Shown here in pieces: positions 126 to 14,068 of a stretch of 14,378 nucleotides of DNA (position 1 is the first letter of the stretch; each line of letters opens with the position of its first letter). The translations under genes were made by a program, and so were the position numbers. Source of the stretch: Thiolapillus brandeum (lineage in GTDB: Bacteria > Pseudomonadota > Gammaproteobacteria > Chromatiales > Chromatiaceae); assembly GCA_011051425.1 (NCBI GenBank), contig DRLF01000139.1, positions 1 through 14,378 of the forward strand, given 5' to 3'. The notes beneath the pieces are model-generated. The model was not told where the DNA came from. It ran no database searches and worked only from the letters and a program-made list of their open reading frames with translations.

Positions 126-1433
126 TCAGAAATGCTGCTCTGAAAATGCCATGAGCTTGGATTCCTTGAGGTGCTTGGGAAGGAAATCCAGCTTCTTTTT
201 CAGAGATGGCCAGAGCAGGTTGTAGTACAGCTCAGCCCTTACCATCGCGACGTTTTTTGCAGGAATGCTGTAGCTCAATTCCCTGCGTTCATACGGATTC
301 AGGCGCGTGTCTTCTCCCGGTTGAGTGGCCTTGGGTGGAGGCACCGGTTTGCCTTCCTTGTTCAGCAGTTTGTAAACAAAATAGGATTTTGGATCTTCCT
401 TGGCTGGGTGGTTCTTGAAGTTTTCCCAGAGCTTCTTGCCATCCTGGTCGTAGGCAGTCACTTTCAGGACCATGTTGCGAAACGGTGCACCGGTGGGGAT
501 CTTGTGCGGTTGCTGATTGCGTATGTGAACGGTCACTTTGATATCCTTTTCTCCTTTTGTGGCATCAAGCTTCAAGAACAGAGCCCTTCGCAAAGTGGCT
601 GCATCGTGTCCGCCACCCATGCTGTGATTGGCAAAACCATTGCTGACCGGCATGTGACAGGACTGGCAGCTGACGTGGGTACGGCCGGCAACATATTCGT
701 CTCCTGTGGCACACAGTGGCACGCCATGAGAATTTGCGCGCTTGTCATGGCAACCAAGGCAGGCGGCTGAGGTTTTAAGCATCTCCGGATTGGATTCCAG
801 CGGCAGTATCATTTCGTCGGCTTCTTCATCAGATACATAGGGTTTCTGTCTGTGGGGGTTCTCTTTTTCCTCCTCGCCTTCATGCGCTTTTTTCGCCATT
901 TCGGCGTGCTGGGAGAAAGAAGTAGGGAAACCGGATGGCCCCTGGCAGCTTTCTGCTACTTCGTAGGCATCAATGCCCAGCCTCAACTTGCCGTTGGACA
1001 AACGTGTTCCCTTGAACTTCTTCAGCCGGTGGCAAACGAGGCAGTTTACGCCCTCCTTGTACGCTGGCATGGCATCCAGCTTGGTTTTCTTGTCCTGGGC
1101 CGCGTTCGGTGCATGACATTTCAGGCAAACGGGGTATTTGCCGTTTTTCATTTTTTCCCCTTCTCTGGTAGGGTCCCCGATCACTTTCTTGTAAAAAGCG
1201 CGGTGAATGGGGTCGGCCAGTGCTGTGCTGTTTGCGTGCATCGAACCTTTCCATTGTTCGTATATTTCCATATGACAAAGCCGGCATTCCTGAGCGGATA
1301 CCTGATGCAGTGGCACTTCTTCATCATCGATAAGTACAGCCTGCGTGGTGCTGCAAAAGAACAGAGTGAAAAGAAATGCAGTAATGGCCTTGCAGGAAAG
1401 AAAATGGTGGAAATTGTTTTGGTGACTGGACAT
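126..1433 (-). CDS. Secreted pentahaem cytochrome c (c554-like), linked to nap
   Basis: This 435-residue protein is probably a periplasmic electron carrier. It has an N-terminal signal peptide with likely cleavage near residue 32 after TQA. Five CxxCH haem-binding motifs begin at Cys50, Cys103, Cys131, Cys225 and Cys256, with many other histidines that could be distal ligands. The part from about residue 290 has no haem motif and looks like a beta-rich domain (HKIPTGAPFRNMVLKV at 310-325), as seen at the C-terminus of some cytochrome c554-family proteins. An AGGAGG ribosome site lies six bases before the ATG. The gene follows napC but is separated from it by a terminator and has its own FNR-like promoter. 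Whether it donates to or accepts from the Nap system, or reduces a nitrogen or sulfur compound itself, cannot be read from the sequence. Confidence 0.85.
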   Translation of the reverse strand: MSSHQNNFHHFLSCKAITAFLFTLFFCSTTQAVLIDDEEVPLHQVSAQECRLCHMEIYEQWKGSMHANSTALADPIHRAFYKKVIGDPTREGEKMKNGKYPVCLKCHAPNAAQDKKTKLDAMPAYKEGVNCLVCHRLKKFKGTRLSNGKLRLGIDAYEVAESCQGPSGFPTSFSQHAEMAKKAHEGEEEKENPHRQKPYVSDEEADEMILPLESNPEMLKTSAACLGCHDKRANSHGVPLCATGDEYVAGRTHVSCQSCHMPVSNGFANHSMGGGHDAATLRRALFLKLDATKGEKDIKVTVHIRNQQPHKIPTGAPFRNMVLKVTAYDQDGKKLWENFKNHPAKEDPKSYFVYKLLNKEGKPVPPPKATQPGEDTRLNPYERRELSYSIPAKNVAMVRAELYYNLLWPSLKKKLDFLPKHLKESKLMAFSEQHF

Positions 1434-1540
1434 TGCGCCCTCCTTGTCTGGTGATTGCCTGAAGTTCTCCGAACGATTGTTGTTTCTTATTCCAGGTCTG
1501 AGCGACAGGATGTTCGGTATATTGCTGTAAAGCAGCTTTG

Positions 1541-1582
1541 ATTATCTGGTGCAAACAGCGCAATTTCCTTGATAGCTGTCAT
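1541..1582 (-). promoter_or_regulatory. Putative FNR-type class II promoter of the multihaem cytochrome
   Basis: TTGAT-AGCT-GTCAT (1569-1582) matches the FNR/Anr consensus TTGAT-N4-ATCAA at 8 of 10 positions. On the minus strand a -10 hexamer GATAAT (1546-1541, 5/6 to TATAAT) lies exactly 22 bp away, the spacing of FNR-activated class II promoters (site centred at -41.5). The predicted start near 1534 gives a leader of about 100 nt. The same geometry is found upstream of napF. Confidence 0.55.
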
Positions 1583-1660
1583 GCGTTACCGGAGAAGGAG
1601 GGATGATCAAGAGAAAGGAAAATGCCAGGGACAGGTTCTTGGATGAGAAACTGCGGGCAC

Positions 1661-1693
1661 AAAAAAAGCGGCCTGTCAGTTGACAGGCCGCTT
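1661..1693 (-). terminator. Strong intrinsic terminator after napC
   Basis: An 11-bp GC-rich stem (1668-1678 and 1681-1691, GCGGCCTGTCA against TGACAGGCCGC), extendable by A-T pairs, is followed on the minus strand by seven T residues (plus A-run 1661-1667). It lies 27 bp after the napC stop and closes the nap operon before the separate cytochrome gene. Confidence 0.85.
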
Positions 1694-1719
1694 CTTGTTT
1701 GGGAGCAAAGAGGGAGGTA

Positions 1720-2295
1720 TCAGCCCGCGTTTTCACCATCCGGTGCATCTTCACCAGGATCGTAGCCTTCCGGCAATTCATGGGCGATACCTTTGTGGCA
1801 ATCGATGCAGGTATAGCCTTTCTCGATGGCTTCTTCATGACGGTCGGCGCTGCGGCTTTCCTGCTTGTCGAAATCCATAGAGTCGAAGTTGTGGCAGTTG
1901 CGGCATTCGCGGGAATCCGTGTCCTTCATGGCTTTCCAGACATGCTTTGCCAGTTCGAGTTTTTTTGCTTCAAATTTTTCAGGAGTATCCACATCCTTGA
2001 CGATGAAGTGGTGATACAACTCATTGGAGGCCTGAATCTTACGTATCATTTTGTACACCCATTCCTTGGGAACATGACAGTCGGGGCAGGTGGCCCGGAC
2101 ACCGGTGCGGTTGGTGAAATGGATGGTATCCTGCAGTTGCTCGTAAGGATTGTCACGCATTTCGTGGCAGGAAATACAAAACTGTTCCGTATTGGTCAAG
2201 GCAAGTGCCCAGTTGAAACCACCCCACAGGATAATACCCAGAATGATACCGATGAGAAGCACTGAAAATGTGCCCTTTTTTTGACCGTTAGTCAT
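1720..2295 (-). CDS. napC: NapC, membrane-anchored tetrahaem quinol dehydrogenase
   Basis: This 191-residue NapC/NirT family cytochrome takes electrons from the quinol pool and passes them to periplasmic NapB and NapA. A single N-terminal membrane anchor spans about residues 9-33, without signal cleavage. Four CxxCH haem motifs follow at Cys40, Cys70, Cys121 and Cys153. The length is usual for the family (about 190-200). The ATG is preceded by AGGGGA at good spacing. It is the last gene of the nap operon, 67 bp after napB, with a hairpin in the gap and a strong terminator behind it. The acidic C-terminal tail after the fourth haem has no obvious function. Confidence 0.95.
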   Translation of the reverse strand: MTNGQKKGTFSVLLIGIILGIILWGGFNWALALTNTEQFCISCHEMRDNPYEQLQDTIHFTNRTGVRATCPDCHVPKEWVYKMIRKIQASNELYHHFIVKDVDTPEKFEAKKLELAKHVWKAMKDTDSRECRNCHNFDSMDFDKQESRSADRHEEAIEKGYTCIDCHKGIAHELPEGYDPGEDAPDGENAG

Positions 2296-2326
2296 GATGA
2301 AATCCCCTGCGTGTAAAGCATGAAGT

Positions 2327-2350
2327 TATGGCCTCCCGGAGGAGGCCATA
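2327..2350. repeat. Intercistronic hairpin between napB and napC
   Basis: TATGGCCTCC (2327-2336) and GGAGGCCATA (2341-2350) form a perfect 10-bp stem with a four-base loop in the 67-bp napB-napC gap. No T-run follows on the minus strand, so it is more likely to affect mRNA processing or stability than to terminate fully. It would tune napC relative to the upstream genes. Confidence 0.6.
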
Positions 2351-2362
2351 CAGTTACTGGTG

Positions 2363-2800
2363 TTATTTTACACCTTCGAAGTCATTTTTGACCAGTGGAT
2401 TAGCGTCCACCTGGGGTGCATGACACTGGTTACAGAAATAACGGCGACTGGAAACTTTTTCCAGCTTTTTTCCGTCGCGGGTGAGGAAATGGCTCTCACC
2501 AAGCATTGGCGCCTTCTCCTTCTTGTGGTTCTTTTTACTGTGGCACTTGAGGCAGCCGTTGTTTTTCAGGTTGATCTTGTACTTGTCGATCTTGTGAGGA
2601 ATCATGGGAGGCTGTTGTTTATATGAGCGCTCGAAGCCGCCTTCCTGAGAAATAACTTTTTTCTTGGTGACCTTCAGTGACTTACCTTCCAGATCTTCCG
2701 TGCCACGCAGAGAAGCGATACTTTCTTTGGCGGTAACCGTACCGCTGGTGACAAGCAACAAGGCGAAGGCTGCCAGGGTTATGTGGATAATCTTTTTCAT
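2363..2800 (-). CDS. napB: NapB, dihaem cytochrome c subunit of periplasmic nitrate reductase
   Basis: NapB is the small dihaem electron-transfer subunit that binds NapA in the periplasm. From the ATG chosen here it has 145 residues with a Sec signal peptide (about residues 1-24), the conserved PPMIPHKI segment near residues 64-71, and two CxxCH motifs at Cys83 and Cys113. An open frame extends five codons further upstream to a TTG at 2815. I prefer the ATG at 2800 because GGAGAT lies just before it and the resulting MKKIIH start gives a typical signal peptide. The napH stop is 21 bp upstream. The mature protein is very rich in lysine. Confidence 0.93.
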   Translation of the reverse strand: MKKIIHITLAAFALLLVTSGTVTAKESIASLRGTEDLEGKSLKVTKKKVISQEGGFERSYKQQPPMIPHKIDKYKINLKNNGCLKCHSKKNHKKEKAPMLGESHFLTRDGKKLEKVSSRRYFCNQCHAPQVDANPLVKNDFEGVK

Positions 2801-2821
2801 CTTTATCTCCATCAACTCAAA

Positions 2822-3730
2822 TTAAACTGTATGTTTGGAATAGGCTTTAGCGGAATGCAGGCCGCTACTGGATTGGTTGGAATAACGGTTGCCAAACTGG
2901 AATACGTTTACAGCGCATACATCGATGCAGCGTCCGCAGTTGGTGCACTGGTTAGCCACGATCACAGGACCAATGCCCTTGGGTGCACCTTTCAGTGCGG
3001 GTTTGATGACCTGAGGTTCGGGGCAGACATTGAAACAGTCCATGCAGTCGTCACAGGCTTCACGGTTTGTCGCTGCAACCCTGACTACCGCCCGATTCGA
3101 CAACAGACTGTAGAAAGCGCCCACAGGGCAGTAGTGTCCGCACCAGCCATCTCTGGAAACCAGAAGATCGAACAGGAATATTGCCAGTATCAGTACCCAC
3201 GCCAACCCCATGCTGAACACGATGCCCCGGAACATGATCGATACCGGATTGACCAGCTCCCAGACGATGCCCCCAGTGATCAGAGGCAGTATCAGCGTCA
3301 GTGCCAGTACCCAGTAACGGGTGCTGCGGGATGCATGAGAACTGCCGCGAATACCCAGCTTGCGGCGCAGCCATGCAGCAGCGTCTGTCACCATGTTCAC
3401 CGGACAGACCCAGGAGCAGTACACCCGTCCGCCCACCAGCGCGTAGAACACCAGCACGATAATTGCACCGACGATGGCAGTGGTTTCAGGCGTAACACCG
3501 GATATCATGGCCTGCAACAGGATATGGGGATCGGTAAGTGGCAGGGTGTCCAGCGTCAGGCTGGAGGCAAGATTGCCCTTGACGATCCACAACCCGAACC
3601 AGGGTCCGGCAACAAATGCCGCCAGAATACCCAGCTGACTGATGCGTCGCAGGATCAACCACTTGTGCGCACCAATCCAACCCTTGGTCTGGATGGCTTC
3701 TTTGCCGACATCTTGAGGCATGTTGGCCAT
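2822..3730 (-). CDS. napH: NapH, membrane ferredoxin-type quinol dehydrogenase subunit
   Basis: NapH is the integral membrane partner of NapG and oxidises quinol to feed the Nap system in parallel with NapC. The 302-residue protein has four predicted membrane segments (about 27-50, 84-100, 139-157 and 170-191). Two family CxxxCP motifs follow membrane segments: CSWVCP at 105-110 and CGHYCP at 197-202. Two C-terminal 4Fe-4S motifs, CDDCMDCFNVCP (226-237) and CTNCGRCIDVC (262-272), lie on the cytoplasmic side. The start is 2 bp after the napG stop, so the two are almost certainly translated together. The Ser-rich tail after the last cluster shows no motif. Confidence 0.95.
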   Translation of the reverse strand: MANMPQDVGKEAIQTKGWIGAHKWLILRRISQLGILAAFVAGPWFGLWIVKGNLASSLTLDTLPLTDPHILLQAMISGVTPETTAIVGAIIVLVFYALVGGRVYCSWVCPVNMVTDAAAWLRRKLGIRGSSHASRSTRYWVLALTLILPLITGGIVWELVNPVSIMFRGIVFSMGLAWVLILAIFLFDLLVSRDGWCGHYCPVGAFYSLLSNRAVVRVAATNREACDDCMDCFNVCPEPQVIKPALKGAPKGIGPVIVANQCTNCGRCIDVCAVNVFQFGNRYSNQSSSGLHSAKAYSKHTV

Positions 3731-3732
3731 TG

Positions 3733-4605
3733 CTATTTATCCTCCGGCTTGCGGTTGAGCGTGTCCAGTGGATTGGTCGAGAAGGGTGAATCAGGCAACG
3801 ATTCGTCGATCTTGCTGTCAATGATCAGTCCTTTGCCCTGGAGGTCGTAGCGCACCCCTGCGGGCAGGTTGTACTGATGTTTGACATCCGGTGTAACCAG
3901 CGCCTTTCCGGCCTTTTCTTTCTCTTTCCAGCCGAAACGGTAGTGGTGACCCAGTTCGCCCTTGGCCAGATCGGTGGGGAAGACCTTGATAGCGGCTTTC
4001 TCCAGGATGCAGGCTTTCTCGCACAAACCGCAACCTGTACAGGCATCGGAATGGACGACAGGGATGAACAGGGCATGTTTGCCGGAACGCACATTGTGCT
4101 GCATGTCCAGGGTAATCGCCTTGCCCCGGATGGGGCAGACATTGAAGCAGACTTCACAGCGAAGTCCCTGGAAGGCGATGCAGTTTTCCTGGTCGACAAC
4201 GACAGCCAGGCCCATACGCGATTTCTCGATATCCGTAAGGGAATGATCCAGCGCATTGGTGGGGCAGGCAGCCACGCAGGGAATGTCCTCGCACATTTCA
4301 CACGGACCGGTACGGGCGATGAAGTACGGCGATCCCGCCGGAATATCGTCACCCAACTGGCCCAGGAACAGAATATCGAAAGGACAGTCTCTGGCGCACA
4401 GGCCGCAACGGATACACGCACCCAGGAAATCTTCTTCCGGTAGCGCACCTGGTGGCCGGATTGCAAGGGGAGGCAGGGCATTGGCCCGTTGGGTATAAAA
4501 ACCCAGACCTACGCCCATGATACCCACACTGCAGGCAGTCTTGAGCGTCGTCGTCAGAAACTGCCGACGGCTGACGCTTTTCTTGCCTTTGTCTGATTTA
4601 GCCAT
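3733..4605 (-). CDS. napG: NapG, periplasmic polyferredoxin with Tat signal
   Basis: NapG is a periplasmic protein with four 4Fe-4S clusters that works with NapH to pass electrons from quinol to the nitrate reductase. The 290-residue protein begins with a twin-arginine signal (SRRQFL at 12-17, hydrophobic stretch to about residue 36). Four cysteine clusters follow: CIRCGLCARDCP at 64-75, CEMCEDIPCVAACP at 102-115, CIAFQGLRCEVCFNVCP at 142-158, and CTGCGLCEKAC at 189-199. The ribosome site is weak. It follows napA after a 55-bp gap holding a GC-rich hairpin and is closely coupled to napH. Confidence 0.95.
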   Translation of the reverse strand: MAKSDKGKKSVSRRQFLTTTLKTACSVGIMGVGLGFYTQRANALPPLAIRPPGALPEEDFLGACIRCGLCARDCPFDILFLGQLGDDIPAGSPYFIARTGPCEMCEDIPCVAACPTNALDHSLTDIEKSRMGLAVVVDQENCIAFQGLRCEVCFNVCPIRGKAITLDMQHNVRSGKHALFIPVVHSDACTGCGLCEKACILEKAAIKVFPTDLAKGELGHHYRFGWKEKEKAGKALVTPDVKHQYNLPAGVRYDLQGKGLIIDSKIDESLPDSPFSTNPLDTLNRKPEDK

Positions 4606-4627
4606 TGCTATAGTCCAGTTCAGCTGC

Positions 4628-4654
4628 GCGGCCCGCCCGCGAAGAGCGGGCCGC
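4628..4654. repeat. GC-rich intercistronic hairpin between napA and napG
   Basis: GCGGCCCGC (4628-4636) and GCGGGCCGC (4646-4654) form a 9-bp all-GC stem with a nine-base loop in the 55-bp gap. No T-run follows on the minus strand, so transcription should continue into napG. It sits just after the napA stop, where it could protect the napA transcript end and favour NapA over the downstream electron-transfer subunits. Confidence 0.65.
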
Positions 4655-4660
4655 TAACCG

Positions 4661-7225
4661 TCATGCCTTGGTGATTTTCACCGCGCACTTCTTGTAATCC
4701 GTCTCTTTGGAAAGCGGATCGGTTGCATCAAGCGTGAGCTTGTTGACCAGACGGCCGGCATCAAACCAGGGAATGAAAATCAACCCCTTTGGCGGCTGGT
4801 TACGGCCCCGTGTCTCTACCTTGCAGGTGATTGTGCCCCTGCGGGAGGAGATCTTGGCCATGCGTCCGTTGCGCAGCTTGAACTTCTTGGCGTCCTTCTT
4901 GTTCATGTACACCACAGCGTCCGGTACCGCACGATACAGTTCAGGCACACGGCGGGTCATGGACCCTGAATGCCAGTGCTCGAGTACCCGGCCGGTGCAC
5001 AGCCACAAGGGATATTCGCTGTCCGGGCTTTCTGCGGGTGGCTCGTAAGGTGCGGTGATGATGTTGGCCTTGCCACCGTTCTTCTTCTTGTTGCCATAGA
5101 AGAACACATCACCTTTCTTGCCGTCCGGATTCCACTTGGCCACATAGGGGTCATAGCCTTCGCGGAAGCGATACAGGGTTTCCTTGCCGTTGACCACGGG
5201 CCAGCGCAGGCCACGTGCCTTGTGGTACATGTCGAAGGGTGCCAGGTCGTGGGCATGGCCCCGACCGAAAGAGGCATATTCCTCGAACAGGCCTTTCTGC
5301 ACGTAATAGCCAAAGTGAGCCGACTCGTTATTGTCATACTCGTTGCCGCGATCGTCGGTGATTTTTCCGTCGAACGGGAACTGGTTGACCTGTCCGTTCT
5401 CATAGAGCACTTCGTACAGTGTTTTGCCTTTGTATTCGGGTGCCTTGTCCAGCAGTTCGGCAGGCCAGACCTCTTCCATCTTGAATCGCTTGGCAAACTC
5501 CATGGTCTGCCACAGGTCAGACTTGGCCTCACCCGGTGCCTGGGTCTGCTGACGCCAGAACTGGGTACGGCGTTCGGCGTTGCCGTAGGCGCCTTCCTTC
5601 TCGATCCACATGGCGGTGGGCAGAATCAGGTCGGCTGCCTGTGCGGAAACCGTGGGATAGGGGTCTGTCACGGTGACAAAGGCATTGGGATTGCGATAGC
5701 CGGGATATGATTCATTGTTCATATTGGCGGCGGCCTGCATGTTGTTGTTGCACTGTTGCCAATAGCAATCCAGTTTCCCGTCGTGCAGCATGCGCATCAT
5801 CTTGACCGCGTGATAGCCTGGCTTGCCGGGAATGGTGCCTTCAGGCAGTTTCCAGATCTTCTCTGCAATCTCGCGGTGGGCCTTCTTCTTGACCACCAGG
5901 TCTGCTGGCAGACGGTGGGAGAAAGTGCCGACTTCACGGGCGGTGCCGCAGGCGGAAGGCTGGCCGGTGAGAGAGAAGGGGCTGTTGCCGGGCTCGGAAA
6001 TCTTGCCCATGAGCAGGTGCACGTTGTAGCACAAGCCGTTTACCCACACACCGCGGGTGTGCTGGTTGAAGCCCATGGTCCACAGGGACATGACCTTCTT
6101 TTTGGGGTCGGCATAAACCTTGGCCAGCCTTTCCAGTTTGTCTTTGGGAACGCCGGAAAGCTTGGATGCTTTTTCCAGGGTATAGGGTGCTACGGACTTG
6201 GCATATTCTTCGAAGCTGATCTTGCTCAGCTTGCCTTTCATTCGGTTCTTGGCCTTCTTCTCCCGTGGATCGTTGGCACGCAGGCCATAACCGATGTCGG
6301 TGGGAGTTTTGGTGAATTGAACGTGTTTGTCGATGAACTCTTTGTTGTAGGCCTTGTTCTGAATGATGTAGTTGGCGATATAGTTCAGAATCGCCAGGTC
6401 AGTCTGGGGTGTGAACACGATGCCGTTGTCCGCCAGTTCGAAACAGCGGTGCTTGTAGGTAGAAAGCACATGCACTTCACAGCCTGGCTTGGTCAGACGG
6501 GTGTCAGTGAGACGGGACCACAGAATGGGGTGCATTTCCGCCATGTTGGAACCCCAGAGTACGAAAGCATCTGCCTGCTCCAGGTCATCGTAGCAACCCA
6601 TGGGCTCGTCGATGCCGAAGCCACGGATGAATGCGCCAACGGCAGAGGCCATGCAGTGGCGGGCGTTGGGGTCCAGGTTGTTGGAGCGGAAACCGGCCTT
6701 CATCAGCTTGGAAGCAGCATAGCCTTCCCACAGGGTCCACTGGCCGGAACCGAACATGGCGACCCGCGAGGTTATTTTGTCTACGGGCTTGCCCTTGTTT
6801 TCTTCCCAGCCTTTTTTGATGGCGGTTTTCCATTTTTCGGCCATGACATCGAAGGCTTCATCCCAGGACACTTCCTCGAACTTTCCATCCTTGGCGTATT
6901 TGCCATTCTTCTTGCGCAGCAGGGGTTTTGTCAGGCGGTCTTCTCCGTACAGGATCTTGGGCAGGAAATAACCCTTGATACAGTTCAGGCCTTTGTTGAC
7001 GGGTGCGTCGGGATCACCCTGGCTGGCGACGACTTTGCCTTCTTTGGTACCGATAAGTACGGAGCAACCTGTACCACAGTAACGGCAGGCTGCCTTGTCC
7101 CAGCGTACACCGGCATCTTCATCTGCCGCCAGCGCTGTTTTGGCTGCCGGAAGGGTGACGCCTGCAGTTGCCGCCGCAGCAGCAATGGCGTTGCTTTTGA
7201 TAAAATCACGTCTAGTTAAACTCAC
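4661..7225 (-). CDS. napA: NapA, catalytic molybdenum subunit of periplasmic nitrate reductase
   Basis: NapA reduces nitrate to nitrite in the periplasm using a 4Fe-4S cluster and a bis-MGD molybdenum cofactor. The 854-residue protein (E. coli NapA is about 828) starts with a Tat signal (TRRDFIK at 4-10, then an Ala-rich stretch ending near residue 34). The 4Fe-4S cluster is bound by Cys47, Cys50, Cys54 (CRYCGTGC) and Cys82 (LNCIKG). Cys191 in [12 protein letters not shown] is the expected molybdenum ligand of the Nap clade. The start is a GTG preceded by AGGAGG six bases away, and it overlaps the end of napD by 14 bp, coupling the enzyme to its Tat-signal chaperone. The gene is full length with no visible break. 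Confidence 0.97.
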
Positions 7226-7493
7226 GGATTACCTCCTCGTTAAGATCATCCCCACCGTAGTGGTAAATCAAAGTTGCACTCACTACACCTTCGAGTGAGT
7301 TGAATGTCATCATGGTGTCGCCAGCGGAATTTTCTTCACTGTCTTCCACTGTGACGATTAGTTTTCCTTCATCCACCCCCCCGTGAACTTCCACGCCGGG
7401 GATGCTGTTCAGCAGTTTTTCGACTTCCGGTCCTCTTTCCGGCCGGGTATGGACGATACAACTGCAGAGATTGGTGGTGTTGCTGTTTTCCAT
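7212..7493 (-). CDS. napD: NapD, Tat-signal chaperone for NapA
   Basis: NapD binds the twin-arginine signal of NapA in the cytoplasm and delays export until the molybdenum cofactor is inserted. The 93-residue protein fits the family length. It has the N-terminal [10 protein letters not shown] strand (10-19), a [15 protein letters not shown] helix-turn and a [15 protein letters not shown] region typical of the ferredoxin-like fold. An open frame continues far upstream inside napF, but the ATG at 7493 is the right start: it lies 4 bp after the napF stop, follows a GGAGG, and gives the family length. Its end overlaps the napA start. Confidence 0.92.
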
Positions 7494-7497
7494 AGGG

Positions 7498-8019
7498 CTA
7501 GGATGCCTCCGGAATTTGGAGTGAAATGGATTGAGTCGGGCATACCGCCAGGCATTCACCGCAGCCGTTGCAAAGCTCCTGATCCAGCAGGGGGGTGGCC
7601 CGGCCACCGATTTCCAGCCGAAAACGGATGGCGTCCGTATCACAGACATCGCCGCAGGAGCGGCAAACGATGCCGTTGAGAGAAAGGCATTCGGGCTTGA
7701 TGCTGGCGCGATGTCGCCATGCAAGAGAAGGGGCGGGTACTGGCGCCTGCAATGCACCGGCAGTGCAGGCAGTCAGGCAGTCGCCGCAAAAGTCGCAGCC
7801 TGCTGACTGGAAACTGATCTCGGGAAAGCCGCCGGAACCTCGAAAAAGGAGCCGGTCTTCGCAGGCATTGATGCAGTCGTCACAACGGCTGCAAAGCTGC
7901 ACAAAATCGTCTTCACCCTGTGCCCAGGGTGGGCGCATCGGTGGCTGTTGGTTGCGAATCTTGCCTCGCAACAACTGGCGTCTGTTTAGGTTGGTTTTCG
8001 CGTCATGCGCTTCAAACAC
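7498..8019 (-). CDS. napF: NapF, cytoplasmic 4Fe-4S ferredoxin-type protein
   Basis: NapF is a cytoplasmic iron-sulfur protein that interacts with NapA before export and is thought to help assemble or load its iron-sulfur cluster. The 173 residues carry an N-terminal LNRRQLLRG segment typical of NapF and not a full Tat signal (no hydrophobic stretch follows). Four cysteine clusters are visible: 43-53 (CSRCDDCINAC), 75-85 (CDFCGDCLTAC), 111-126 (with CRSCGDVC), and 150-160 (CNGCGECLAVC). The start is GTG with AGGA six bases upstream. It is the first gene of the operon, about 26 nt after the predicted transcription start. Confidence 0.92.
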   Translation of the reverse strand: MFEAHDAKTNLNRRQLLRGKIRNQQPPMRPPWAQGEDDFVQLCSRCDDCINACEDRLLFRGSGGFPEISFQSAGCDFCGDCLTACTAGALQAPVPAPSLAWRHRASIKPECLSLNGIVCRSCGDVCDTDAIRFRLEIGGRATPLLDQELCNGCGECLAVCPTQSISLQIPEAS

Positions 8020-8214: not shown

Positions 8215-9081
8215 TCACAGGCTTATACGATCAAAGTATCTGCCCCGATAAAGCAGCCGCTGGCTGTTTTTCTCGAAGCCGGTGCGCGTATGCAGCACAT
8301 TGTTGCAGATGAGACCCTGACCCGCACCCAGCGTGCCTTCTATATAGTAAGGGTTGTCCGGGTTCATGATGCTGCCCAGGAATGCCACGGCCTGTCGGGT
8401 GAGTTCGTCGTCCCGCCATTCGATATTACGTTTGCGGTGGGTGTAGCGCATGTGCAGGCTGCCATTGTCCTGCAGCATGAACACCGGTCCCCTCGCCCAG
8501 CCACGCAATTCTTCACCGTTGACCACATTGGGGGGGATGCTCATGGCTTCGGGGTGTTCGAAAGCGCGGATGAAATCGGGATTTTCATCCCGCAGCATGA
8601 TGTAGGCAATCTCATGATCGAGGAGCTGATTCATGCCGCCTTCGGACGCCGGGCGGACACAATGCAGCAGCAAGCCGTGAATCTGTTTGTCCAGGTCGTT
8701 GTAGTAGCCGTCCGTGTGCCAGGCGATCGGGCGGTTGGTGTAGGGGATGTAGCCGGTGCGGGGTTCCTCATCCGCCTGTTCCAGGGAGGAGATGGCGTCG
8801 CCGTCGGCGCACATGTTGTGATCCAGGTGTTCCAGGCCGAACTGCAGTCCAAGCTGGCGTACGATTTCCTTGTCCGGGTCGTCTCCGGTTGTACCCGCAT
8901 AGATGGCCATGTTGGTTTTTCTCAGTATTTCCGACAGCTTGCTGTGCTGGGCTGGCGTCAGGCTGCGTGGATCATCGACTTCCACAACCAGCAATTCAAG
9001 TGCTGTGGGATAATCCCGTAGTTTTTCGTCCCGCCATTGCCGGTACGCTTCGTTGTCATTCAGATCGAAAGGGTTGTTCAT
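8215..9081 (-). CDS. TauD/TfdA-family Fe(II)/2-oxoglutarate dioxygenase
   Basis: This 288-residue protein is a predicted cytoplasmic non-haem iron oxygenase that couples decarboxylation of 2-oxoglutarate to hydroxylation of an unknown substrate. The iron-binding HxD motif is in AWHTDGYYN (His122, Asp124) and the distal His264 lies in NNVLHTRTGF. Arg275 or Arg279 in QRLLYRGRYF is the likely 2-oxoglutarate carboxylate ligand. No signal peptide is present. The ATG overlaps the stop of the radical SAM gene by 4 bp (ATGA), so the two are translationally coupled. The taurine enzyme TauD is not implied: no sulfonate transport genes are nearby. It needs oxygen, which is odd next to a radical SAM enzyme that is usually oxygen-sensitive. 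Confidence 0.85.
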   Translation of the reverse strand: MNNPFDLNDNEAYRQWRDEKLRDYPTALELLVVEVDDPRSLTPAQHSKLSEILRKTNMAIYAGTTGDDPDKEIVRQLGLQFGLEHLDHNMCADGDAISSLEQADEEPRTGYIPYTNRPIAWHTDGYYNDLDKQIHGLLLHCVRPASEGGMNQLLDHEIAYIMLRDENPDFIRAFEHPEAMSIPPNVVNGEELRGWARGPVFMLQDNGSLHMRYTHRKRNIEWRDDELTRQAVAFLGSIMNPDNPYYIEGTLGAGQGLICNNVLHTRTGFEKNSQRLLYRGRYFDRISL

Positions 9082-9677
9082 CCTACTTTGTCCAGTTGAC
9101 GGCGCCGGAAAGCCACGCCGCGTTGTTTTGCCAGTTGTTCACAGGCCTGAATATCCACGCCTTCGAGTCCGTCGATGGCGGTGGCGGTTACGTTGGGAAT
9201 GTATTTGGGTGCTTCTTCGAGAAATGACAGCATGGCTTCCCAGGAGCCAGGCAGTGCCGGGTGGCAATGCCGTTCATACACATCCGGGTTCTGGGCGTTC
9301 ATGGACACCGAAAGGCTGTCCACCACGCCCTGCATTTCCGGAAGTACGTCGCGCTTGTTCACCAGGTTGGCGAGGCCATCGGTGTTGATGCGCACCTTGC
9401 CGCCGTGAGCCTTGACCCACCGGGCGATCTCCATCAGCACCTTGAAACGCAGGGTAGGCTCACCGAAGCCGCAAAACACGACTTCGTCGTAGTCCGCCGG
9501 ATTGCCGATCGCTGCGATGATCTCGTCCACTTCCGGACGGTGGTCCAGGCTTAGATCGAATTCATGCACTCTGGGGCCCTGATCCGTGTGCTTGGGGCAG
9601 AACTGGCACTCCAGGGTGCAACGGTCGGTGATGTTCAGGTACAGACTGTTGCGGATGGGGTAGGCGAGTTCTGTCAT
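9078..9677 (-). CDS. Small radical SAM protein, TatD-linked type
   Basis: This 199-residue protein has the radical SAM cluster motif CTLECQFC (Cys20, Cys24, Cys27), which binds a 4Fe-4S cluster and cleaves S-adenosylmethionine. FCGFGEPTLR (68-77) is the SAM-contacting glycine-rich motif. Its small size and the NSLYLNITDRC and VVFCGFGEPTLR segments resemble the family described as TatD-family-associated radical SAM proteins, whose reaction is not established as far as I know. No SPASM extension or extra cluster is visible. No tatD gene lies in the window: here it is between an M16 peptidase gene (2-bp gap) and a dioxygenase gene (4-bp overlap). Its own ribosome site is weak, consistent with translational coupling. 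Confidence 0.82.
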   Translation of the reverse strand: MTELAYPIRNSLYLNITDRCTLECQFCPKHTDQGPRVHEFDLSLDHRPEVDEIIAAIGNPADYDEVVFCGFGEPTLRFKVLMEIARWVKAHGGKVRINTDGLANLVNKRDVLPEMQGVVDSLSVSMNAQNPDVYERHCHPALPGSWEAMLSFLEEAPKYIPNVTATAIDGLEGVDIQACEQLAKQRGVAFRRRQLDKVG

Positions 9678-9679
9678 GT

Positions 9680-11104
9680 TCAGGGTTTGGCCAGCCGGAT
9701 GTCACCAAACAGCGACAGGGATTCCATGATGGCTTTGGCATCACCGCTGATGGCCACGGCCTGCTTGCGTGAGGCAAAGTATTTGCGGCCCATTTCCCTG
9801 ACATCCTGCTTGCGTACTTTCTCGATGCCGGGTACGTACTTGGCCAGATCTCCGGGCGTCTTGCCGTCGATCCAGTAGCCGGTGAGGGTGGATGCCAGTG
9901 CGGATGAGGTTTCATTGGAAAGCAGGAAACTGCCCTTGAGATAACGCTGGGCGCGTGTCAGTTCCTCGTCCTCCGGCAGCGTGGTGGCCAGCCGGTCCAG
10001 CTCATAGAAGATCTCCGTCAGTGTGGCGGCGGTCACTTCGTTGCGGACCGAAGCGCTGATGCTGAAGATGCCGCCCTTGGCCCAGTCTGATACCGATGCG
10101 TGCGGGGAATAGGTGTAGCCCTTTTCTTCCCGTATATTCTGGGTCAGGCGGCTGCCGAAAGCGCCGCCGAAAATGGTGTTTGCCACCTTGAGTGAAAATT
10201 CATCGGGATTGCCTGCCGCGGGCATGGGGCGGCCCACGTAGATCGTGGACTGCACGGATTTCGGACGGTCCACTACCAGGAATTGCTGCCTGGTGGTGGC
10301 CGGGGCAGGTGGAATGGCCGCAAGCTTTTTACCACTGCTCTTCCAGTCACCGAAGTGCTTTTCAGCCAGTCCGGCCATTTTGCCGGTTGGCAGATTGCCT
10401 ACCATCACCAGAATGCCCTGGTCCGGGCGAAACCGTTGCTGATAGACGGCGAGCAGGTCTTTTGGCGTAACCCTGGCGACAACCTTCGGGTCCGGGTTGA
10501 CGAAAGCATAGGGGTGTTTGCCGAACAGCTCGGTATAGAAAACCTGCGACAGGTCATAGGATGGCTGGGATTTGCTGGCGATGATGGACTGCAGTTCATT
10601 CTCGATCGCCAGTTTGACCTCATCTTCCGGAAAACTGGCATGGCGGGCCGTGTCCGCCAGGATTTCCAGCAGCTGGCCGGTCCCCGAAGACAGGCCGTCA
10701 ATGCCGATATAGGAAATGTCCTTACCGATACCAACGCTGATATCCGCGCCAAGCGCCTGCAGTTCTTCTGCAATCTGGCGGGAAGTGCGTTTCCTGGTGC
10801 CTGCGCTGATGGTCGAAGACAGTATGTCGCTCACGCCCCGGAGATTTTCAGGGTCGGATGCAGAACCGCCCCTGACCGCGAGATACATGGAAATCAGCGG
10901 CAGGCCCGGACGTTCGATGAGCCACAGCGTGAGGCCGTTGGGTAGTTTCTTTTCCACCACGGCAGGAAGGATCAGGGGTTTGTCCTGGGCGTAGGCTGGC
11001 AGCCCCTTGATGGGCGCGTCCTTTTCCTTTGTCGACGAGGCGTTGCCAGCGGCTGCCAGCAGGGAAAGACTGAGCAACATGCTGATGATCCGGTTCTTCT
11101 TCAT
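9680..11104 (-). CDS. M16-family peptidase-like subunit lacking the zinc motif
   Basis: This 474-residue M16 (pitrilysin/PqqL-like) protein has an N-terminal signal peptide (about residues 1-22) and is likely periplasmic. It has the family's two-lobed arrangement, with the C-terminal substrate-side motif REEKGYTYSPHASVS. Where an active enzyme has HxxEH, it reads GVSDILSSTISAGT, with Asp93, Ser96 and Ser97 replacing the two histidines and the glutamate, so it should not bind zinc or cleave. It is the expected non-catalytic partner of the active M16 protein encoded just upstream, like the alpha/beta subunits of bacterial and mitochondrial processing peptidases. Its ATG overlaps the upstream stop by 4 bp, with AGGAG nine bases before it. 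Confidence 0.9.
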   Translation of the reverse strand: MKKNRIISMLLSLSLLAAAGNASSTKEKDAPIKGLPAYAQDKPLILPAVVEKKLPNGLTLWLIERPGLPLISMYLAVRGGSASDPENLRGVSDILSSTISAGTRKRTSRQIAEELQALGADISVGIGKDISYIGIDGLSSGTGQLLEILADTARHASFPEDEVKLAIENELQSIIASKSQPSYDLSQVFYTELFGKHPYAFVNPDPKVVARVTPKDLLAVYQQRFRPDQGILVMVGNLPTGKMAGLAEKHFGDWKSSGKKLAAIPPAPATTRQQFLVVDRPKSVQSTIYVGRPMPAAGNPDEFSLKVANTIFGGAFGSRLTQNIREEKGYTYSPHASVSDWAKGGIFSISASVRNEVTAATLTEIFYELDRLATTLPEDEELTRAQRYLKGSFLLSNETSSALASTLTGYWIDGKTPGDLAKYVPGIEKVRKQDVREMGRKYFASRKQAVAISGDAKAIMESLSLFGDIRLAKP

Positions 11105-12462
11105 GGCTGCTTCTCCTGATGCTGTTGGGCCACCTGGCGATCGATCCAGCTGCGGTTGGCGACGGTAAGGTATTTTTCCGCAACGCGCTGGATATCCTTT
11201 GAAGTGATCTTGCGGATGAGGTCCGGATAACGGTTCACCAGGTTGGCATCGCCGTGCAGCAGCTGGGTGATGGCCAGATAGTCAGCCCGGTCGATGTAGC
11301 TGGCCAGTTGCTTGTAAAAATCGGCGATCATTTTTGTTTTGACGGCCTTCAGGCGTTTCGGGTCTATGCCTTGTCTGGCAAGCTGGTCGATCACGCCCTG
11401 TATATCGCTGGTGTCCTGTGCGGCACTGCTGCCGGGCTTGTAGATGCCGAAAGCCACCATAAGGCTGGGGCCGGCGAAGGTCAGGGGGTCACCCAGGGGC
11501 CAACCCATGCCGCCTGAGATGGAAAGCATGGACTGCTTCTCCTTGACCATTTTCTGGTAAAGAAGGCTGGCATCGCCACCCAACAGAACCTCACCCAGCA
11601 CGGCCAGCGGGTAGTAGTCCGCGCTGTCAGGCCCGGGCATCTTCCAGCCGATGGCCAGTGCGGGTGCCATGGCGTGTTCGTCCGTCTCTTTTTCGAAGCG
11701 TTCCTTGGTGTTCGGTTTTTCTGAAACGTCGGGAAGTGTTGGCAGCTTCGCCGCCGGGATGCTGCCAAAATACTTGTTTACCAGCTTGTAGGCGGTGTCA
11801 CCGTCCACATCTCCGGCAATGGCGATTACCGCATTGTTCGGCGCGTAGTAGGTGTGATGGAAGCGTTCGACGTCCTCGATGCTGGCTTTGTCCAGGTCAA
11901 CGAAGGAGCCATAGCCGTCATGGGCGTTCTCCCATTTGTTGAATGCCAGGGCAGCGAGATCCGTCCAGAAAAACAGGCCATAGGGCTTGTTTTTTACATT
12001 GACGCGAATTTCCTCTTTTACAACGTCGCGCTGGTTGTCGAGATTTTCCTCGGAAAAATCCAGGTGGCGCATGCGGTCTGCCTCCAGCCACAAAACGGGT
12101 TCGAGGGCGGAGACGGGGGCGGTGGATATATAGTTGGTGTAGTCATACCGGGTGGAGCCGTTGAGAGAGCCTCCGCCACCCTGGATGATCTTCACGAAAC
12201 TGCCCTTGGGGGCATTGGGAGTCCCTTCGAACATCATATGTTCGAAAAGATGGGCGAAGCCGGTACGCCCCCTGGGTTCCAGGCGAAAACCTACATGGTA
12301 AGCAATGGACAGGCCGAAGGTGGGGGAGCTGTGATCCTCCGAAACCACCAGGGTCAGGCCGTTGTCCAGTTTGTAGGTATGGACAGGCAGCTTCTGTCCG
12401 GCCATCGCACCGGAAAAGACCAGCAGCAATACCGGCCACATTTTGCAGAATATTTTTTTCAT
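11101..12462 (-). CDS. Catalytic M16-family zinc metallopeptidase, secreted
   Basis: This 453-residue protein begins with a signal peptide (about residues 1-22), so it acts in the periplasm. The inverted zinc motif HLFEH (71-75, in GFAHLFEHMMFEGT) is intact, and the third ligand is a glutamate in VVKEEIR (about residue 150-151), at the expected distance of about 76 residues. M16 enzymes degrade or process short, unfolded peptides inside a clam-shell made of two M16 units, and the second unit is supplied by the next gene. An open frame extends 20 codons further upstream to 12522. I prefer the ATG at 12462 because MKKIFCKMW starts a normal signal peptide and AAGGAG lies 12 bases before it. It is first in a four-gene operon. 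Confidence 0.92.
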   Translation of the reverse strand: MKKIFCKMWPVLLLVFSGAMAGQKLPVHTYKLDNGLTLVVSEDHSSPTFGLSIAYHVGFRLEPRGRTGFAHLFEHMMFEGTPNAPKGSFVKIIQGGGGSLNGSTRYDYTNYISTAPVSALEPVLWLEADRMRHLDFSEENLDNQRDVVKEEIRVNVKNKPYGLFFWTDLAALAFNKWENAHDGYGSFVDLDKASIEDVERFHHTYYAPNNAVIAIAGDVDGDTAYKLVNKYFGSIPAAKLPTLPDVSEKPNTKERFEKETDEHAMAPALAIGWKMPGPDSADYYPLAVLGEVLLGGDASLLYQKMVKEKQSMLSISGGMGWPLGDPLTFAGPSLMVAFGIYKPGSSAAQDTSDIQGVIDQLARQGIDPKRLKAVKTKMIADFYKQLASYIDRADYLAITQLLHGDANLVNRYPDLIRKITSKDIQRVAEKYLTVANRSWIDRQVAQQHQEKQP

Positions 12463-12822
12463 CTTGTTTTGCTTCTCCTTGTCCGCTTGTACCGCAGATG
12501 GTTGCTGATCTTGCAGACCCAAAAAATCAGGCCCGGTTCAGCGGTTTCCCAAGTTGTCAGAGGTCTTATCAATAAGAAAATGGTAATATTCTTATTAATG
12601 GCGCCGGTGAACGGAAATTTTAGCACTCCATGAAATGGGAAGATACGTGCGGTTTTTTGTGTTGCAGAACAGGTTAATAGCCAAAAACTAATTATTTGAA
12701 AAATTAAATAGTAAATAACTACTTAACAATATAAGCAAAAACTGAAATACTAATATGCAGATGACGAGTTGGACGCATCTACAAACAAAGAAGTTCCACT
12801 AAACTGATTTTGGAGATTTACG
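12463..12822. promoter_or_regulatory. Divergent intergenic region between M16 operon and sulfur-globule-like genes
   Basis: This 360-bp stretch holds no gene I can support and must contain promoters for both directions. The half next to the globule-like gene (about 12670-12760) is strongly AT-rich with A and T tracts, as expected of an upstream element of a strong promoter. TAATAT at 12751-12756 is a possible -10, but no matching -35 box is at a normal distance. A GGAG ribosome site (12812-12815) precedes the ATG at 12823. I could not place a convincing minus-strand promoter. Confidence 0.45.
12571..12596. promoter_or_regulatory. Operator-like inverted repeat
   Basis: AATAAGAA (12571-12578) and TTCTTATT (12589-12596) are perfect inverted 8-mers whose centres are 18 bp apart, nearly two helical turns. 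The left arm also pairs with the adjacent CTTAT (12565-12569) to make a shorter palindrome, CTTAT-CA-ATAAG. This is the form of a dimeric regulator site and it sits between divergent genes. No regulator gene lies in the window to assign to it. Confidence 0.4.
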
Positions 12823-13194
12823 ATGAAAAAAATGATTAAAGTTGCTGCTGTTGCAGCTCTGCTTGCCGCTTCTGCTTCTGCTTCTGCATGGTGGGGTGGT
12901 CCTTGGGGTGGCGATCGCGGCTACGGTAACAACGCATGGGACGACGCATGGGACGGTATTGGCGACGGTTACGGTTCTGGTGACTTCAGCTTCGGCATGA
13001 GCGGTTCTGCACGTGGTAGCGGCTATGGCCGTGGTTACAACCGTTACAACGGCTACAATGGCTACGGCTATGCCCCTTACGGTTATGCTCCTTACGGCGC
13101 TCCTTATGGTTATGCTCCTTATGGTGCTCCTGCTCCTTATGGCGCTCCTGCTGCTCCTCAGGCTCCTCAAGCTCCTGCGGCTCCTGCCAAGTAA
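12823..13194 (+). CDS. Sulfur globule-like envelope protein, Gly/Tyr/Pro-rich
   Basis: This 123-residue protein is exported by a Sec signal peptide (residues 1-22, cleavage after ASASA, mature start WWGGPWGG). The mature part is low-complexity: Trp/Gly/Asp-rich to about residue 50, then [19 protein letters not shown], then repeated YGYAPYGAP units and a Pro/Ala/Gln tail (about 81-123). It has no cysteine. The composition, the signal peptide and the WW-G start resemble the sulfur globule proteins (Sgp) of Allochromatium and relatives, which coat periplasmic sulfur deposits. The family call rests on recalled resemblance, not a search. Codons are dominated by GGT, GCT and TAC/TAT, which suggests high expression. 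It is followed by a closely related gene after a hairpin. Confidence 0.75.
13063..13188 (+). repeat. In-frame tandem repeats coding YGYAPYGAP
   Basis: Imperfect units of the type GGTTATGCTCCTTATGGC, GCTCCT and TATGGC repeat along the 3' half of the first globule-like gene, drifting into CAGGCTCC-type units near its end. The repeats encode the Tyr/Gly/Ala/Pro-rich tail and are likely to change in copy number by slippage or unequal recombination. Confidence 0.75.
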
Positions 13195-13205: not shown

Positions 13206-13240
13206 CATCAGGTGTGCCCGCGGTATCGGTACACCTGATG
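13206..13240 (+). repeat. Stem-loop between the two globule-like genes
   Basis: CATCAGGTGT (13206-13215) and ACACCTGATG (13231-13240) make a perfect 10-bp stem in the gap between the two genes. No T-run follows on the plus strand. It probably acts as a partial terminator or as a stabiliser of the first gene's mRNA, which would keep the short protein more abundant than the long one. Confidence 0.6.
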
Positions 13241-13286
13241 GTATTGGGATGAATGGGTTCATTTGAATGATACCGGAGAGTGTGTG

Positions 13287-14003
13287 ATGAATAAGATGGT
13301 TAAAATTAGTATGGCCGCCGTACTGGCCGTTGCTTCCGCCTCGGCTTCCGCCTGGTGGGGAAACAATGACGGTTGGGACAACGACGGTTTTGGCGATTTC
13401 ATGGGCGACATGTTTGGCGACATGGATTTCAATTTCAATATGCATGCCCGTGGTGATGGTTACGGACGTGGCTACGGTTACAACCGCTACAATGGTTATG
13501 ATGGCTATGGTTATGCTCCCTACGGTTACGCTCCCTATGGCTATGGCGCACCGGTTGCACCGGCCCTGAGCGAAGAGCAGCAGAAAGCCGCTGCCGAACA
13601 GTATGCCAAAGCGATCGAAGCTCAACGCAAGGCCGCTGAAGCTTATGCAGCTCAGCAAGCCGAGATGTACAAGCAGTATCAGGCGACTGCTCCTCAGCAG
13701 ACCATGCCTGCTCCCTTCCAGGCTCCCCAGTTTTCGGGTTTCAAGAGCCGTGACGAAGTCATGAAGGAAATGGATGCTCGCCGTGCAGAAATGCAAAAAG
13801 AGATGGAAGCCCGCCGCGCTCAAATGGAAAAGGAAATGGGTGGTATGCAACGCCCAATGCCTGCTTCCTTTGACGCTCCCAAGTTCGAGGGTTTCAAAAG
13901 CCACGATGAAATGATGAAAGAAATGGAAGCCCGTCGTGCGCAAATGGACAAGGAAATGCAGGCCCGTCGCGCCCAGTTCGACAAGGGTTGCAACAAGCTC
14001 TGA
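13287..14003 (+). CDS. Sulfur globule-like protein with long charged helical repeat tail
   Basis: This 238-residue paralogue of the preceding protein shares its signal peptide end (SASASA|WWG, cleavage near residue 22), a Gly/Asp/Phe segment ([18 protein letters not shown], 35-52) and a [21 protein letters not shown] region (57-77). It then departs completely. Residues 94-134 are Ala/Gln/Glu/Lys-rich and should be helical. Residues 140-238 contain two copies of a 51-residue unit: MPA-x-F-x-AP-x-F-x-GFKS-x-DE followed by MKEM-x-ARRA-x-M-x-KEM heptad-like sequence, a likely coiled coil. The only cysteine is Cys235, four residues from the end. The ATG at 13287 is chosen over an upstream in-frame TTG because GGAGAG lies eight bases before it. 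A role in coating sulfur globules is inferred. The helical tail's function is unknown. Confidence 0.75.
13704..14000 (+). repeat. Two direct repeats of about 150 bp coding a 51-residue helical unit
   Basis: The segments 13704-13853 and 13857-14000 encode aligned units ([18 protein letters not shown] and [18 protein letters not shown], each followed by MKEM/ARRA-type helix). The period is 153 bp, an exact number of codons. The second copy is truncated at its end into KGCNKL. Shorter internal repeats (ATGGAAGCCCGxCGxGCxCAAATGG) occur within each unit. Confidence 0.8.
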
Positions 14004-14037
14004 TCTCTATCTTCAAAGAGCAGCTTGCGGAAGAATG

Positions 14038-14068
14038 GCGCGCCCGGCAATGCCGGGCGCGCTTTTTT
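14038..14068 (+). terminator. Strong intrinsic terminator after the globule-like genes
   Basis: An 11-bp all-GC stem (14038-14048 and 14052-14062, GCGCGCCCGGC against GCCGGGCGCGC, loop AAT) is followed directly by six T residues (14063-14068). It lies 34 bp after the stop at 14003 and closes the plus-strand unit. Confidence 0.9.

Follow-up and report, generated by a model that had tools for sequence, protein, structure and literature searches.

The window, by which we mean the whole 14,378-nucleotide stretch of Thiolapillus brandeum DNA that was analyzed (contig DRLF01000139.1), contains near its right-hand end two adjacent genes whose products match the Pfam sulfur globule protein family (SGP; PF17228). 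In the product of the second gene, the SGP domain is followed by a long C-terminal tail. The features of this pair are as follows.

12823..13194, + strand: short sulfur globule protein of 123 aa, first gene of the pair (PF17228, 85.3 bits)
13206..13240, + strand: intergenic stem-loop with 13 pairs and a 9-nt loop, not followed by a T run (inverted repeat)
13287..14003, + strand: tailed sulfur globule protein of 238 aa (open frame, PF17228 match)
13287..13352, + strand: predicted signal peptide, residues 1 to 22 (read from the sequence; cleavage probably before Trp23)
13353..13589, + strand: Gly/Tyr-rich SGP domain, residues 23 to 101 (PF17228)
13572..13688, + strand: helix 1, residues 96 to 134, the best-conserved tail block, common to SgpD (model and alignments)
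13695..13832, + strand: 51-residue repeat copy 1, aligned residues 137 to 182, including most of helix 2 (155 to 185)
13848..13985, + strand: 51-residue repeat copy 2, aligned residues 188 to 233, including most of helix 3 (205 to 237)
13989..13991, + strand: codon of the sole cysteine, Cys235
14037..14068, + strand: hairpin resembling a Rho-independent terminator, after the second gene (12-pair stem, 11 G-C, then a T run)

A preliminary description of this DNA had placed the second gene at 13287-14003 (+) with a product of 238 aa, had likened its N terminus to the upstream protein, and had pointed to two 51-residue repeats and a lone cysteine close to the end, all of which is borne out. BLASTP aligns the tailed protein with the upstream 123-aa protein over residues 1 to 79, signal peptide included, with 50 of 90 columns identical (E 7e-09). 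Aligned at an offset of 51 residues, the repeats have 32 of 46 positions identical (protein repeat score of 171, compared with a maximum of 71 in 1,000 shuffles), and the corresponding DNA copies, 153 nt apart, are 75% identical over 130 nt. The cysteine is residue 235 of 238, the fourth from the end. Differences at third codon positions dominate in comparisons with four relatives (for the locus L039, 8, 7, and 77 differences at codon positions 1, 2, and 3 over 236 codons), indicating that 13287-14003 is a real gene constrained at the protein level. Its ATG lies just 3′ of a CCGGAGAG stretch shared by the window and all six relatives aligned with it (7 sequences), and there is an alternative in-frame TTG start at 13263. 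The N terminus reads as a Sec-type signal, with a basic start, a hydrophobic core, and a SASA-W junction; the mature protein has a mass of 24.7 kDa. The tailed protein scores 48.7 bits against PF17228, for which the gathering cutoff is 26.7.

The two genes are separated by 92 bases, within which the stem-loop at 13206-13240 appears to be maintained. Among seven sequences (the window and six relatives), 5 of its 13 pairs have changed on both sides, 89% of cells pair, compared with at most 42.4% when the structure is slid, and the covariation score is 0.399, compared with at most 0.121 when slid; of its two outermost pairs, one is broken in 5 and the other in 4 of the 7 sequences. A counterpart is seen at the matching place in L040-L043, L045, and L048. 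Perhaps this stem-loop, lying between two coat genes, adjusts how much short protein is made relative to tailed protein. The hairpin after the second gene is one of 2 such sites found by the terminator scan, for which 2.2 are expected in shuffles.

The source genome (G000) is 2.74 Mb and 84% complete. It has three SGP matches, two in the window and one on another contig, where the third SGP gene (L003, 306-698) is followed by two frames that by eye resemble Crp/Fnr-type regulators (914-2187). Matches above the cutoff were found to dsrA (565.7 bits) and soxB (607.1 bits; a second match, partial, lies on a different contig). No match to soxC was found in G000, a weak negative given 84% completeness. 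On the − strand, positions 126-8019 of the window hold a periplasmic nitrate reductase (nap) cluster in which NapA, NapG, and NapH are above the cutoff, together with NapC-, NapB-, NapD-, and ferredoxin-like frames and a frame resembling a multiheme cytochrome. Between this cluster and the coat genes, also on the − strand (8215-12522), lie TauD-family and radical SAM frames and two adjacent M16 peptidase frames. No viral contigs were matched, and Rfam at gathering scores gave no hits in the window.

The tail is homologous to that of SgpD (Alvin_2515) of the purple sulfur bacterium Allochromatium vinosum, as judged by three kinds of sequence comparison. Mature SgpD receives 55.6 bits from a profile of 46 tails (45 from named loci plus that of the window), SgpD itself being left out of the profile, while the best of 2,000 shuffles reaches 2.8; BLASTP aligns the tailed protein with SgpD over residues 89 to 182 (E 7e-05); and hhalign of the family alignment with SgpD gives a probability of 98.7%, signal peptide included. 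The sgpD gene was located by means of a terminator sequence printed in PMC10386293, which occurs in one of five genomes searched (G124, at 2.84 Mb, which we take to be A. vinosum); beside it is a frame of 202 residues with a signal followed by Trp, and a second tail profile (A3, made from 21 of the 46 tails) matches this place with an E value of 1.2e-13. It is thus mistaken to suppose that a tail of this kind is absent from known globule proteins. When the fetched loci were searched with the first profile as stop-to-stop frames (3,165 frames, each ≥100 aa), 62 matched at E ≤1, and these look SGP- or SgpD-type by length, position, and Gly/Tyr content, some being duplicates under different locus names. 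For the tail of the window protein, Pfam offers only the helical domain PF24423 at 19.8 bits, below its cutoff of 30.9, and NCBIfam offers nothing; the tail being a known, unrelated domain is accordingly rejected. No PDB entry matches the tailed protein by sequence. A search of the literature on tails, SgpD, and hendecads in globule proteins, with most subscription papers outside its reach, turned up no tailed SGP other than SgpD, and the accessible parts of papers on symbionts report abundant SGPs without stating their form.

An AlphaFold2 model based on 33 sequences (mean pLDDT of 66.5, pTM of 0.33) predicts helices at residues 96-134, 155-185, and 205-237. Averages for 10-residue blocks of helix range from 64 to 95 (90 to 94 for the helix 1 blocks spanning 101-130), 64 residues have a pLDDT of ≥90, and the Gly/Tyr region is mostly below 50. 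Foldseek found no solved structure in the PDB that resembles the model. In helix 2, Val158 and Met residues 162, 169, 173, 180, and 184 follow one another at steps of 4, 7, 4, 7, and 4, a register that Met159 does not share; helix 3 has Met residues 209, 213, 220, and 224 and Phe231 at steps of 4, 7, 4, and 7, again with one residue, Met210, out of register. Five hydrophobic patterns were tried, among which the hendecad (positions 0 and 4) is the best for helices 2 and 3: its P values for helices 1 to 3 are 0.39, 0 of 500 shuffles, and 0.002, compared with 0.028, 0.066, and 0.012 for the heptad. The same periodicity is seen more widely. In 79 tail segments drawn from 53 of 55 clusters of homologues, with helix 1 left out, large hydrophobic residues are enriched at lags of 11, 7, and 4 (z of 15.8, 8.7, and 8.1) and also at lags of 14 and 15 (z of 5.2 and 4.5) but not at a lag of 3 (z of 0.4). 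Since helix 1 fits the heptad better than the hendecad and lag 14 is enriched, there may be a heptad contribution. A classical heptad coiled coil throughout is not favored, as helices 2 and 3 fit the 11-residue pattern better; the earlier term "coiled-coil-like" applies only loosely, the tail being predicted as three separate helices. No significant hydrophobic moment was detected between 80 and 120 degrees in helices 1 to 3 (P of 0.13, 0.98, and 0.79), so an amphipathic, surface-binding helix of the lipid droplet kind is not favored either, and any packing would have to rest on a narrow stripe composed mostly of Met.

In a sample of 146 genomes of the family, PF17228 matches were found in 130 and tail profile matches (E ≤0.001) in 77, the latter representing 34 of 61 genera. 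In a class-wide sample the tail profile matches 13 of 369 genomes, two of which are in the family; among the 11 outside it, G502 gives the one strong match (E 5.2e-18), and the next has an E value of 5.3e-8. These weak class-wide matches imply that chance may account for a few of the weakest matches in the family. Among the 52 protein homologues listed, 39 have a precomputed PF17228 match. According to the BLAST search in PMC10386293, SgpD is nearly confined to Chromatiaceae; of three exceptions, all unplaced, one is an endosymbiont of the tubeworm Escarpia laminata. In our profile searches, SgpD-type tails extend to Sedimenticola and to symbionts of lucinids, further tubeworms, and Solemya. 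Clustering at 70% identity reduced 119 proteins to 55 clusters, loci present in both sets being merged by clustering only; L193 and L208 (no signal start found) and L201 (contig end) were dropped from the family sample and L084 (cut) from the named loci. In a tree of the tails, SgpD falls in a supported clade of ten proteins that have neither a Gly/Tyr domain nor a partner, and the window protein falls outside it in another supported clade of five. The deep branches are weak, and the Gly/Tyr domain may have been either lost toward SgpD or gained. By eye, the tailed proteins of L079 and L074 have in-frame duplications of tail units of their own, unlike that in the window.

The pairing of a tailed gene with a short SGP gene is usual where the Gly/Tyr domain is present. 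The set analyzed comprises 78 loci (76 fetched tail loci with E ≤1e-7, the window, and SgpD) from 68 of the 77 genomes, the other nine having only weaker tail matches (E >1e-7). A Gly/Tyr-plus-tail locus was defined as one in which at least 12 Gly or Tyr residues precede the tail, and in 48 of 52 such loci a short SGP gene lies no more than 400 nt upstream in the same orientation. Three of the four loci without a partner have merely 219, 29, and 336 bases of upstream sequence, leaving L202 as a real exception. For tail loci without the Gly/Tyr domain, the figure is 7 of 26, two of these seven (L196 and L208) having uncertain starts. A test of the domain against the partner that is free of ancestry contained 2 independent pairs on supported branches and had no power (median P of 1). 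Among the named loci, 37 of 45 long proteins show the pair, at distances of 87 to 178 nt, and five of the eight unpaired loci belong to a group ending in D-[TK]-C-A for which no partner was seen. The culturable relatives Sedimenticola selenatireducens and S. hydrogenitrophicus (L054 and L053) have the pair. These 45 proteins (≥155 aa) were found by a sequence signature among 69 named loci, and the count does not include at least five tailed frames that the signature missed (L046, L055, L065, L088, and L091).

Our preferred reading, to which we give a probability of roughly 60%, is that the product of 13287-14003 is a structural subunit of the sulfur globule coat, with its SGP domain in the coat and a tail that oligomerizes. 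It would be part of the periplasmic envelope of sulfur globules in a sulfur-oxidizing gammaproteobacterium, a location suggested by its kinship to SgpD and the Pfam SGP proteins. The Gly/Tyr-rich domain would assemble on the sulfur surface together with the short SGP from the upstream gene. The tail would be the SgpD module, a conserved first helix followed by Pro-containing linkers and hendecad helices, and these helices would stand off the sulfur surface, pack with the tails of neighboring subunits, and so hold the coat together; the periodicity of the hydrophobic residues is what points to packing. In lineages with a terminal cysteine, the end of the tail could be joined to another subunit through a disulfide or to sulfur. 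SgpD itself is the most abundant globule protein of A. vinosum by proteome, and an mCherry fusion places it on the globules (PMC10386293). Deletion of sgpD is reported to leave globule size and number unchanged (PMC10386293), which speaks against size control in A. vinosum and suggests that the tail may be dispensable or redundant.

Alternatively, the tail might not self-associate at all and might instead form a charged brush of rigid single helices, directed outward from the coat, that prevents globules from fusing or from sticking to the membrane, with the number of repeats setting the length of the brush. Helices 2 and 3 are 55% and 45% charged, the helices have no hydrophobic moment, and helix 1 has more opposite charges at i+3 and i+4 than its shuffles (z of 3.2 and 3.0) and no like-charge pairs at these spacings. 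A variable length is also found within the genus of the window, where L158 and L161 have one 51-residue unit fewer and retain the terminal cysteine and the rest of the architecture. However, helices 2 and 3 show no excess of opposite charges at i+4 over their shuffles (z of 0.5 and 1.0), and a pure brush has no need of the 11-residue hydrophobic pattern that is kept in these helices across the family. We regard the brush as possible, with perhaps one chance in a few of being correct.

It is less probable that the tail, by way of its end, serves as a tether between the coat and either the cell envelope or some other partner. The chains of 17 of 55 cluster representatives end with [KR], at most one residue, [DE], and [IL], and this [KR]-x-[DE]-[IL] chain end is a possible recognition motif; the cysteine could play the same part. 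A metagenomic protein, P0050, couples an SGP domain to an OmpA-family domain (PF00691, 80.4 bits). The OmpA-family module binds peptidoglycan in other proteins, and the P0050 architecture is a possible route for fixing a sulfur coat protein to the envelope. Nevertheless, no other protein among the 52 homologues listed has this architecture, and the tail itself has no Pfam or NCBIfam domain above cutoff, which together make a tether unlikely. Another of these proteins, P0023, has an SGP domain followed by a partial carbonic anhydrase (PF00484, 36.1 bits) on a contig of 1,300 bases and is perhaps an assembly chimera.

The terminal cysteine could also be the working part of the protein, with a persulfide or polysulfane on it capping sulfur chains or handing sulfur to carriers, in which case the coat would be covalently bound to the sulfur. 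The window protein ends in CNKL, its close kin end in CNKL, CSKL, CDKS, or CNKS, and cysteine-bearing ends elsewhere are CKQM, CKQI, NCS, NCSS, CRES, CREI, TCA, and KCA. Eight of the 27 mature cysteines in the 55 clusters are within the last 4 residues, where 0.5 would be expected, a result not equaled in any of 100,000 random placements, although this test ignores ancestry. The tail tree requires at least 5 changes of the terminal cysteine state, which could be gains or losses, and mature cysteines are absent from all 59 short SGPs. The sulfur of A. vinosum globules has been described as mono- and bis-organylsulfanes (PMC10892978). The terminal clustering thus lends some support to the earlier suspicion that this cysteine matters, but the residue is not generally conserved: of the family sample's 77 complete tailed proteins, only 13 have it at the end, and the closest named relative of the window protein (L039, from a Chromatiaceae MAG), which is 92% identical, ends in HNKL. 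The cultured relatives encountered are likewise without a terminal cysteine. Moreover, disulfide cross-linking would give the same pattern. We regard a cysteine as the working part as improbable, and cross-linking or sulfur capping by this residue is a guess that its position makes reasonable. More speculative still is the specific idea of a covalent anchor for sulfur, formed by a cysteine retained or reacquired at the C-terminal tip of a long helical arm, so that coat proteins bear the ends of stored polysulfane chains. If it were true, the coat would be chemically bonded to its cargo and would help to set where sulfur is added and withdrawn. Finally, a Gly/Tyr-rich protein of the envelope with no part in sulfur storage is very hard to reconcile with the PF17228 match, the SgpD-homologous tail, the upstream SGP, and a genome with dsrA and soxB.

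By combining the SGP domain and the SgpD tail in a single chain, the tailed proteins link two known kinds of globule protein; as features common to SgpD and the other coat proteins, PMC10386293 (2023) gives only spaced prolines and repetitive sequence. The gene pair, the 51-residue unit of variable number, and a terminal cysteine that recurs provide handles on how the coat is built and on whether it bonds to sulfur.

Compared with P0050, the tailed protein has the same plan of an SGP domain followed by a second, C-terminal module, but its module consists of helices rather than an OmpA-family domain. With SgpA, SgpB, and SgpC and the Pfam SGP family (PF17228), it has in common a signal peptide and a Gly/Tyr-rich domain, and it is set apart from SgpA to SgpC by size; at 11 to 13 kDa (PMC10386293), these are probably too small for such a tail. 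SgpD differs from the tailed protein in having no PF17228 match, in having no short SGP found within the 4-kb stretch around its gene, and in having 11 residues before the tail (2 of them Gly or Tyr) instead of 67 (28 of them Gly or Tyr), and its predicted model has two confident helices (PMC10386293) where ours has three. Each of the two proteins has a single mature cysteine near the C terminus, although that of SgpD is the eighth residue from the end. They also share a signal peptide that ends before Trp (for SgpD, see PMC10386293), the conserved first helix of the tail, a Pro-rich middle, and an RR-rich second helix.
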